Assembly (NCBI GenBank): GCA_026196225.1
Contig: JAPHRD010000110.1
Coordinates: forward strand, 1-48,739
Direction of reading: 5' to 3'
DNA length: 48,739 nucleotides
Source of the DNA: Motiliproteus sp.
Lineage (GTDB): Bacteria; Pseudomonadota; Gammaproteobacteria; Pseudomonadales; Balneatricaceae
Positions 16,796-20,541 of the stretch are shown here, piece by piece. The stretch's first letter is position 1; the number at the start of each line of letters is the position of its first letter. A program made the translations under genes and the position numbers. Below the pieces are notes generated by a model, which saw nothing but the letters and a program-made list of their open reading frames with translations, did no database searches and was not told where the DNA came from.

Positions 16796-19555
16796 ATGTC
16801 TGAACAGTCCACAGTAGCCCCCCTGATTTTGGTGGATGGCTCCTCCTACCTGTATCGTGCGTTTTTCGCCTCTCAACAGGCTGATCTGCGTAACTCTGCC
16901 GGCCAGCCCACCGGTGCAATCCGTGTGGTGACCAGCATGCTGCGAAGCCTGATCAAACAGTACCCGGACAGCGCGGTGATGGTGGTCTTCGATGCTAAGG
17001 GCAAGACCTTCCGCGACGATATCTATCCCGAATATAAAGCCAACCGCCCTTCGATGCCGGATGATCTGCGCTCGCAGATCGAGCCCATCCACACCATAAT
17101 CAAGGCGATGGGCTTGCCACTGCTGGCGGTAGAAGGAGTCGAAGCCGACGACGTTATTGGCACCCTCGCCCGCCAAGCCAGTGCCGCCAGTATGAACACC
17201 TTGATCTCCACCGGCGACAAAGATATGGCACAACTGGTGGACCAGCACGTCACCCTGATCAACACCATGACCGATACCCAGATGGACCCACAAGGGGTAG
17301 TGGAAAAGTTCGGCATCGGCCCGGAACTGATTATCGATTTTCTGGCGCTGATGGGTGACAAAGTGGACAACATTCCCGGCGTTCCCGGCGTTGGCGAAAA
17401 GACCGCCTTGGGACTATTGCAAGGCATCGGCAATATAGAAAATATTTACCAGAATCTGGATAAAATCGCCGAGCTGACCTTCCGTGGTGCCAAGACCATG
17501 GCCAAAAAACTGGAAGCTCACCGCGATGAGGCAGAGCTTTCCTACACCCTGGCCACCATCAAAACCGATGTTGAATTGGAGATCGGTGCAAAAGAGATCA
17601 AAAACGGTGAGTTAGACAAGGAACAGCTAAAAGCCCTGTTCCAGGAATTTGAATTTCGCAGCTGGCTGAAAGAGCTCGACGGCGATAGCACCGAAGCAGC
17701 AAGCGCTTCTGGTGATAACGATAGCCTACCCATCGCTCCCAGCGACGTGCACTACGACACTGTGCTCACCAGCGGAGCCCTGCGTGGCTGGCTACAACGG
17801 TTAGAACATGCGGAGCTGTTTGCCTTTGATACCGAAACCACCAGCCTCGATTATATGGAAGCGGAGCTGGTTGGGATCTCCTTTGCCGTAGAGCCGGGCC
17901 AAGCCGCCTACGTGCCCTTAGCCCACGACTATATGGGGGCACCAGAACAACTGGACCGAGCCGAAGTTCTGGAGCTAATGCGCCCGCTGCTGGAAAACCC
18001 GGATCGGGCCAAAGTCGGTCAGCACCTCAAATACGACAAGAATGTGCTGGCTCGCTACGGCATCGAGCTGCAGGGGATCGCCTACGACACCATGTTGGAG
18101 TCCTATGTGCTCAATTCCACCGCTACCCGCCACGATATGGACAGCCTGGCTGAAAAATACCTGGGCCAGAAAACCATCCACTTCGAAGAGATCGCCGGAA
18201 AAGGCAAGAAGCAGCTGACCTTCAATCAGATCGAATTGGAGCAAGCCGCACCCTACGCCGCCGAAGACGCGGACATCACTCTGCGCCTGCATCAAACGCT
18301 GAAAGCCAAGTTAGACAACGAACCAGCCCTGCTGGAAATCTTTGAGTCATTGGAGCGGCCACTGATTCCAGTACTGTCCAAAATCGAACGCCAGGGAGCC
18401 CTGGTGGACGCCAATATGCTGGGGCAGCAGAGCCATGAACTGGCTGAACGGTTGGTAACACTGGAACGAGAGGCCCATGAGTTGGCCGGTGGCGAACCCT
18501 TTAATCTCAACTCCCCGAAACAGCTGCAGGAGATTCTGTTTGAGCAGTTGAAGCTGCCGATTATCAAGAAGACTCCCAAAGGCGCGCCGTCCACCGCAGA
18601 AGAGGTCCTGGTAGAGCTAGCACTGGACTATCCGCTACCGAAATTGATTCTGGAATATCGCAGCCTCAGCAAGCTGAAATCCACCTACACCGACAAGCTA
18701 CCGCTGATGATCAAGCCCCAGACCGGGCGTATCCATACCTCCTATCATCAGGCGGTCACCGCCACTGGCCGTCTCTCATCAACAGATCCCAATTTGCAGA
18801 ATATTCCAGTACGTACTGCAGAAGGTCGGCGTATTCGCCAAGCCTTTATTGCCCCCGAAGGCTACAAAATTGTCGCTGCTGACTACTCCCAGATCGAACT
18901 GCGAATCATGGCTCACCTCTCCCAAGACAAAGGCCTGCTCAACGCCTTTGCCGCCGGTGAAGATATCCACCGCGCCACCGCCGCCGAAGTTTTCAAAGTA
19001 CCGCTGAATGCCGTCAGCAGCGATCAGCGCCGCAGCGCCAAAGCGATCAACTTTGGACTGATCTACGGCATGTCAGCCTTTGGCTTGGCCAAACAGCTGG
19101 GGATCGCCCGTAAGGACGCGGCACAGTATATCGAGCACTATTTCGAGACCTACCCCGGTGTTCAAAACTATATGGACGATATCCGCAGCCAGGCCGCCGA
19201 GAATGGCTACGTAGAAACCCTCCGTGGCCGCCGACTTTATCTGCCAGAGATCAAATCCCGTAACGCCATGCGCCGCCAGGCCGCCGAAAGAACCGCCATC
19301 AACGCGCCGATGCAGGGCACTGCTGCCGATATCATCAAGCAGGCGATGATTGACGTTGATGCCTGGCTCAGCACCAGCGATTGGGATGTACGAATGATCA
19401 TGCAGGTCCACGATGAACTAGTATTCGAAGTACCCGAATCACGACTACAAGAGTTTAAATCCGAAGTGATTGAACGGATGGCACAAGCCGCCAAACTGGA
19501 CGTTCCTTTGTTGGTTGAAGCAGACGACGGCGATAACTGGGAACGGGCCCACTAA
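16796..19555 (+). CDS. polA: DNA polymerase I
   Basis: This 919-residue protein is full length. The 5'-3' exonuclease domain (about 1-290) shows [14 protein letters not shown], the acidic [10 protein letters not shown] and [18 protein letters not shown]. The 3'-5' proofreading domain keeps its metal-binding acids ([11 protein letters not shown], and [10 protein letters not shown] for Exo III), so proofreading is expected. The polymerase domain has motif [15 protein letters not shown], motif [20 protein letters not shown] and motif [12 protein letters not shown]. It fills gaps and replaces RNA primers in replication and repair. The gene is transcribed away from DUF2782-thrB-uvrD. A candidate small RNA lies directly downstream. 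The ribosome site is weak (GAGAAG about eight bases upstream). Confidence 0.98.
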
Positions 19556-19591: not shown

Positions 19592-19748
19592 TATACTTAA
19601 TGAACCCAGAATCCCAATCTGGGGTCACATGTATTGAGAGTCATGTCATTCTCGACAGTTGGTGCCATCTGAAATGGCTCTTATAAAAATAATACATGTC
19701 CATTAGGCCCTATTAATCGCTCCCCTTCCGACTATAGGGCCTTTTTTT
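19592..19748 (+). ncRNA. Candidate Hfq-type small RNA downstream of polA (Spot 42/ErsA position), with -10 and terminator
   Basis: No open frame explains this stretch. TATACT (19592-19597) is a good -10, though its -35 is weak, giving a start near 19604 and an RNA of about 145 bases. The RNA would begin with the stem CCCAGA/TCTGGG (19605-19610 with 19618-19623, loop ATCCCAA). A second stem GCCAT/ATGGC (19664-19678) follows, then an A/U-rich single strand (TTATAAAAATAATA, 19681-19694). It ends in a perfect 9-base-pair terminator stem AGGCCCTAT/ATAGGGCCT (19705-19713 with 19734-19742) and a run of seven T. The 20-base terminator loop holds CTCCCCTTCC, which could pair with Shine-Dalgarno sequences. 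The site just after polA is where Spot 42 and ErsA are coded. Sequence homology to either is not claimed. Confidence 0.7.
19705..19748 (+). terminator. Intrinsic terminator of the candidate small RNA
   Basis: This is a perfect nine-base-pair stem with a C-rich 20-base loop followed by seven T residues. It would also stop transcription reading out of polA. Confidence 0.9.
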
Positions 19749-19980: not shown

Positions 19981-20541
19981 ATGATTAAGCAATTGATTAC
20001 AGGACTGGTGGTCACTGGCTTAACCTGTAACCTGGCCTTCGCCGACAACGGCTACAAAAACAATCGCCACGGTAAAGCCCGCATCCATTACGCCAAGGTG
20101 GTAAACGTTGACCCCATCACAGAGACCCTGACCCATCGCGTACCTCGTGAAACCTGCTGGACCGAGCAAGTGGCCTATCAGGAGCCAGGATACCGTAATA
20201 ATTCCTACACTCCGGCTTTGATCGGTGGCCTCATAGGCGCAGCCGTCGGTAACAGCCTGGGGAAAAAACATCACAAGACCAACCGGACCATTAAAGCAGT
20301 TGCCCTGGGCGCATTGGGTGCCTCCATCGGTCGCGACATGGGACGCCGTCATCACACAGCTTCGCGAGTCGAGTACCGGGACGAACAGCGCTGCGAAGTA
20401 AGCTATGAAACCAGCTATGAAGAACGCATTGTTGGTTATGATGTTCGCTACCGTTACCGGGGCGAGACATACAACACCAAGATGGACTATGATCCGGGTA
20501 ACAAGATTCGTGTTCGGGTTAATGTCAGACCGGTGATCTGA
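19981..20541 (+). CDS. Exported glycine-zipper 2TM-domain protein
   Basis: This 186-residue protein has a signal peptide (MIKQLITGLVVTGLTCNLAFA). Its middle contains two glycine-rich helices, ALIGGLIGAAVGNSLGKKHH (about 78-97) and AVALGALGASIGRDMG (about 105-120), the glycine-zipper 2TM pattern of the 17 kDa antigen/SlyB family. Flanks are rich in Tyr, Arg and His, and the only mature cysteines lie in ETCWTEQ and QRCEVSYE, which could form a disulfide. There is no lipobox, unlike SlyB. AAGGAG six bases upstream fixes the start at 19981. It is first in an operon that ends with a PhoP/PhoQ-like pair; in enterics slyB is a PhoP target, so a role in envelope stability under the control of this system is reasonable inference. 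Confidence 0.82.
   Translation: MIKQLITGLVVTGLTCNLAFADNGYKNNRHGKARIHYAKVVNVDPITETLTHRVPRETCWTEQVAYQEPGYRNNSYTPALIGGLIGAAVGNSLGKKHHKTNRTIKAVALGALGASIGRDMGRRHHTASRVEYRDEQRCEVSYETSYEERIVGYDVRYRYRGETYNTKMDYDPGNKIRVRVNVRPVI

Follow-up and report, generated by a model that had tools for sequence, protein, structure and literature searches.

The window analyzed in this study is a stretch of 48,739 nt from Motiliproteus sp. (contig JAPHRD010000110.1); the genome it belongs to, G000, comprises 3.96 Mb in 138 contigs. The polA gene ends with its stop codon at 19555, the next ATG lies at 19981, and the interval between them contains, on the same (+) strand, what sequence comparison indicates is a conserved small RNA (sRNA) gene. 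An earlier note on this DNA had placed a candidate sRNA after polA, in the position of Spot 42 and ErsA, and the coordinates agree with that placement. The second stem, the A/U-rich tract, and the perfect terminator with seven T that it described are all present in the sequence. The tract occupies about 19682-19695, and the terminator is a perfect 9-bp stem (19705-19713 with 19734-19742) that encloses a 20-nt loop (19714-19733) and leads into seven T at 19742-19748, the first of which takes part in the stem pairing. The conserved part measures ~113 nt, from near 19636 to the terminator end at 19748 (Table 1). A small protein was considered and rejected: a 9-codon frame begins at ATG 19643, and by eye G001 shares this frame but continues it beyond the stop, and an ATG is missing there in G002, G004, and G005.

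Table 1. Observed and predicted features of the post-polA interval, with the evidence for each
Feature	Position	Strand	Evidence
sRNA gene as conserved	19636..19748	+	Covariance models R1 and R2 match 19636-19747; fold z -3.0
Stem-loop 1, arms GAGAGTCAT/ATGGCTCTT (19636-19644 pairs with 19674-19682)	19636..19682	+	8 of 9 pairs changed on both sides in relatives
Terminator hairpin with its T run	19705..19748	+	Sequence; 6 of 8 pairs changed on both sides
C-rich seed of the terminator loop, CTCCCCTTCC	19720..19729	+	Conserved in the family; single copy in the window
Predicted -35, GAACCC, sigmaE/AlgU-type (relatives GAACTT)	19602..19607	+	Register common to relatives; matrix score
Predicted -10, TCACA	19625..19629	+	6 nt ahead of the first conserved helix; matrix score
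First stem of the earlier note, CCCAGA/TCTGGG, with CCC loop; probably promoter spacer DNA	19605..19623	+	Counterpart only in G001 among the genus loci

We searched 96 relatives for PolA and obtained matches in 57 of the 60 that belong to the window's family and in 35 of the 36 that come from other families of the order. Post-polA sequence was collected from all 57 family genomes; of the 35 PolA-positive genomes outside the family, 28 were used (G061, G072, G075, G081, G091, G092, and G094 were left out). One relative in the same genus as G000, G004, is identical after polA to Motiliproteus sediminis over the 420 bases compared (L115, L039). Because direct DNA similarity was convincing in only three of five genus relatives (G001, G005, and G002), we turned to covariance models. 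R1, for which the window and G001 supplied the sequences, found 20 loci at E 0.05 in a set of 59 sources; by itself it matched 6 of 116 family genomes, and on 85 polA loci it recovered nine true ones and a single weak stray hit, L089 (E 0.96).

The second model, R2, matched 59 of the 116 family genomes at E 0.1, covering 11 of 16 genera; the 57 genomes in which it found no match at that threshold count against our best reading. Of its places, 35 could be checked against known polA coordinates (G000 excluded), and 29 of these follow polA in the same orientation at a distance of no more than 600 nt, 12 of them in genomes that contributed no row to R2. The place in G056 is 2.9 kb from polA, and that in G058 is not near polA, being on another contig; the polA contig of G058 ends soon past the gene. 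Second or weak places on other contigs occur in G032, G001, G006, and G009. The second place in G032 (L330, contig C1, - strand, about 1501-1613) scores 33.6 bits away from polA, and its terminator hairpin loop carries CCCCCCTTCC. Over 390 genomes of the order, R2 matched 20 at E 0.05; the 10 outside the family are no more than chance would give, and one of them (G460) is matched at ErsA.

The helices were examined by folding and by covariation. The segment 19636-19748 folds better than its shuffles (z -3.0, with 2 of 200 shuffles as good), as does the longer segment 19603-19748 (z -4.1, 0 of 200). In the R1-based alignment of 19 distinct rows, 16 of 20 pairs changed on both sides, compared with 8.0 (sd 1.6) in shuffles, none of 500 of which did as well, and sliding the structure along the alignment gave at most five such pairs. 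Pairing was possible in 96.3% of the pair cells. Fitting the alignment to the structure biases it toward that structure, and the shuffle and slide controls are a partial guard; with that reservation, covariation supports the predicted helices. The earlier note had asked, as its own test, whether relatives conserve the stems and the loop, and conservation was found in the covariation, the loop, the promoter, and the covariance model matches. Conservation, covarying helices, a promoter pattern and loop kept in relatives, linkage to polA, and the presence of rpoE and hfq in the genome are observations; transcription of the gene is what we infer. Counted against our best reading is the predicted probability of stem-loop 1 in a window RNA starting at 19636, which is only 0.17, with a rival 5' hairpin predicted instead; this probability rises to 0.53-0.57 with two to four extra upstream bases and to 0.92 with ten. 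In the remaining four members of the genus the rival hairpin is not favored; the one exception is G004 with ten bases of upstream sequence included.

Between polA and the first helix, relatives carry the pattern GAACTT-N15-17-TC, which we take to be the sigmaE/AlgU promoter form. Within 200 nt after polA it occurs in 31 of 57 family genomes (mean 0.75 and maximum 3 in 200 shuffles), and the looser GAAC-N17-19-TC occurs in 45 of 57 (shuffles 5.6, maximum 12). Other families of the order show the stricter form in 7 of 28 genomes (shuffles 0.19, maximum 2) and the looser one in 10 of 28 (shuffles 2.3, maximum 7). In the register of the relatives, the window carries GAACCC-N17-TCACA (19602-19629), a weaker form that overlaps the first stem and CCC loop of the earlier note. 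A matrix trained on 41 sites from other genera scored it 9.4 bits, the top value in the interval and one that 1.6% of 3000 random window stretches reach; the runner-up, GAACTA-N18-TCCCA, scored 8.7 bits. Two results count against the assignment: 9.4 bits is weak beside the relatives (17.9 in G004, 14.1 in G002, and 11.2 in G005), and G001 has no good sigmaE-type site (3.3 bits, equalled by 22% of random stretches). The distance from the -10 block to the first helix is 4-6 nt in eight of the first nine loci compared and 10 nt in G001. The window genome encodes RpoE (303 bits, above cut-off), with GAACTA-N16-TCCTA upstream of rpoE. The RNA is probably switched on by envelope stress, through the predicted sigmaE-type promoter.

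This placement changes part of the original description. The sigma70 -10 proposed at TATACT (19594-19599) did not hold up, as a promoter scan returned no + strand site there and no good -35 was visible by eye. The note's first stem, in which 19605-19610 pairs with 19618-19623, does exist in the sequence together with the CCC loop, but both are probably promoter spacer and not part of the RNA; among the genus loci compared, only the sister genome G001 has a counterpart. Because that stem sits in the predicted spacer, the true 5' end probably lies at 19634-19636. The sRNA gene of the earlier note is retained, with a 5' end that is probably ~35 nt further downstream than the one near 19600 implied there.

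Strong inverted repeats of differing sequence lie over the -35 region in G005, G027, G051, and G036 (L116, L150, L147, and L138). Inverted repeats over the promoter were rejected as a general rule, with a mean z of -0.57 over 46 genomes, 12 of which fell below -1.5. In genus g4, whose genomes are small, the promoter pattern after polA is absent from all four loci (L148, L149, L153, and L156), and the sRNA may have been lost there.

The 20-base loop with a C-rich, anti-Shine-Dalgarno-like seed was correctly described and is strongly conserved in relatives; CTCCCCTTCC occurs once in the window, against 0.11 expected. At 45-150 nt after the promoter, CCCCTT is found in 37 of 45 promoter-matched family genomes (mononucleotide shuffles 2.6, maximum 8) and CCCC in 42 of 45 (shuffles 15.6, maximum 23). 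Genera g12 and g13 have an additional C-rich stretch ~22 nt after the -10. Hfq was found in all five genomes examined, and hfq is encoded in the window genome.

We searched for targets with GGAAGGGG-N4-13-ATG, which gave 105 sites in five genomes versus 53 for the reversed pattern, an excess that ordinary Shine-Dalgarno sites would also give. The candidate targets comprised 27 translations, with one locus represented twice; a single gene recurred between genomes, and it seems to lie inside a longer frame. The sole target lead is a gene for a PagL-like lipid A deacylase, an outer-membrane enzyme, in the window's own genome (L215:934-1503, contig C10; Pfam PF09411, 108.7 bits). An unusually G-rich ribosome-binding site, AAAGGAAGGGGAAAATCC, precedes its ATG and is complementary to the sRNA loop, so that in the window genome the start region is predicted to pair with the loop. 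The pairing would be less extensive in G001, whose orthologue keeps AAGGGGAA, and absent in G005, whose orthologue does not; no orthologue was matched in G002, G003, or G004.

Comparison with known RNAs began with ErsA. Searching the window with the Rfam family Pseudomon-1/ErsA (RF01719) gave nothing at the gathering score (50 bits) or at E 10, and no match turned up in the window's own genome, in the 18 family-1 genomes of the order-wide draw, or, at E 1, in 20 loci of the family. By sequence, the window RNA is not an RF01719 member. The earlier suggestion of an sRNA gene in the position of ErsA holds, and the element is like ErsA in position and shape. RF01719 does match L183 (121.3 bits) and L061 (73.6 bits), and it exceeds its cut-off in 17 of 390 genomes of the order, all in one family (f21); at E 0.05 it adds 26 genomes, two of which (G066 and G093) are matched next to polA by coordinates. 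In the reverse direction, R2 was run on 15 sources (43 kb) and landed, weakly, on ErsA in every one of the 13 that are RF01719-positive, with E values of 0.0003-0.5; ten of these are the top RF01719 loci and close kin that are not independent. It finds no match in L175 and L176. The top three R2-ErsA alignments cover mostly the terminator with its C-rich loop.

ErsA itself is encoded between polA and engB and folds into three stem-loops with a U-rich linker (PMC8575079, in part), whereas the window RNA has two main helices and the window genome does not have engB as its next + strand gene. Like the window RNA, ErsA directly follows polA in the same orientation and ends in a terminator hairpin with a C-rich loop. 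The ErsA loci that were read carry GAACTT-N16/17-TC, a pattern that is strong in the window's relatives and weak in the window. ErsA depends on AlgU/T (sigma22) and represses oprD with Hfq (PMC7264166 and PMC5819304, in part), and Pseudomon-1 is listed for Pseudomonadales (PMC2864571, in part). The window RNA would work like ErsA and is perhaps homologous to it, from the same ancestral gene.

Spot 42 (spf) shares the place after polA. The earlier note had found the sequence unlike Spot 42, which is borne out by an Rfam search in which RF00021 had no match in the window at gathering or at E 10; by eye, Spot 42 RNAs in enteric loci also differ in sequence and start. The best sub-threshold Rfam match in the window, JA04 (25.6 bits against a cut-off of 81, E 0.15), was discarded as evidence. 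At L079 (Rheinheimera soli), within about 300 nt after polA, GAACTT-N15-TCTTA and a short terminator are followed by the start of a Spot 42-like sequence; Spot 42 had no Rfam match there at gathering, and this locus may hold the two RNA types side by side. The E. coli RNAs RybB, MicA, and MicL are also short, sigmaE-dependent sRNAs with a sigmaE-type promoter, with other genes and seeds than the window RNA.

In Xanthomonadaceae, sX13 is always found downstream of polA; its C-rich loops act, without Hfq, on G-rich motifs close to the start codons of its targets (PMC3771888, in part). As described in that source, it resembles the window RNA in place, in C-rich loops, and in the G-rich targets predicted for the window RNA, and differs in its Hfq independence and in having three C-rich loops, where the window RNA shows one. 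A limited literature search returned this paper as the only one on a C-rich sRNA downstream of polA, and it returned no small RNA of Motiliproteus and no comparison of sX13 with ErsA. Alcanivorax dieselolei has a conserved, expressed sRNA4758272 beside a ribosome biogenesis GTP-binding protein gene (PMC9788540, in part), which may be the same locus because that neighbor is the kind of gene that follows ersA; the part of that source used here does not name the window RNA.

We give a probability of about 0.7 to the reading that the interval holds a conserved sRNA gene downstream of polA, with a likely sigmaE/AlgU-type promoter and ErsA-like action of a C-rich loop. That there is only a polA transcription terminator with leftover sequence, and no regulatory RNA, seems highly improbable: the hairpin could also end polA transcripts, but a terminator has no need of another covarying helix, of a promoter pattern separating that helix from polA, or of a conserved loop sequence. 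We also consider it unlikely that a sigma70-type TATACT promoter makes a ~145-nt RNA that starts with the CCCAGA/TCTGGG hairpin and so gains a second CCC loop. TATACT has no matching -35, and in the other relatives compared the same part is promoter, with the conserved RNA starting near 19636; G001, on the other side, shares TATACT, keeps the hairpin as CCCCGG/CTGGGG, and lacks a good sigmaE site, and the extra upstream sequence favors stem-loop 1 in the window (0.92 with 10 bases).

Two origins of the likeness to ErsA were weighed. One ancestral post-polA sRNA, driven by sigmaE/AlgU and carrying a CCCC loop, could have been kept across much of the order, with ErsA as the Pseudomonas branch and the window as a marine (Motiliproteus/Neptuniibacter) branch outside Rfam whose sequence drifted beyond the ErsA model; we hold this tentatively, at close to even odds. 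A real sRNA that resembles ErsA by convergence, having gained its polA site and C-rich loop independently, is a serious competitor that we would still bet against. In its favor are the absence of RF01719 matches in the 18 family-1 genomes of the order-wide draw and, at E 1, in the 20 family loci, the top three R2-ErsA alignments being mostly terminator and C-rich loop, and the occurrence of C-rich loops in unrelated sRNAs (PMC3771888, in part). Against convergence, the two groups agree in place, orientation, and promoter type and in having a terminator with a C loop, the promoter pattern also appears in other families of the order, and sub-threshold RF01719 matches lie beside polA in two more families (G066 and G093).

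Under the reading of a sigmaE-controlled, ErsA-like sRNA, envelope stress would free RpoE, and an RNA of about 113-115 nt would be made from the sigmaE (RpoE/AlgU)-type promoter, ending at the terminator at 19748. It would act in trans, the C-rich loop of its terminator hairpin (CUCCCCUUCC) pairing with ribosome-binding sites that are rich in G, GGAAGGGG for example, and thereby lowering or blocking translation of the mRNAs that carry them. Hfq would probably be involved, at the A/U linker and the U tail, and the likeliest targets would be envelope proteins. Each step past conservation, from sigmaE control, Hfq binding, and targets to homology with ErsA, is one that we infer.

Since Rfam recognizes neither the window RNA nor the 20 family loci, annotation based on Rfam would miss this RNA. 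The pattern shared within one marine family, a sigmaE-type promoter with a C-rich terminator loop, also fits ErsA. As these are free-living marine strains, they would open RNA control of envelope stress to study outside pathogens.
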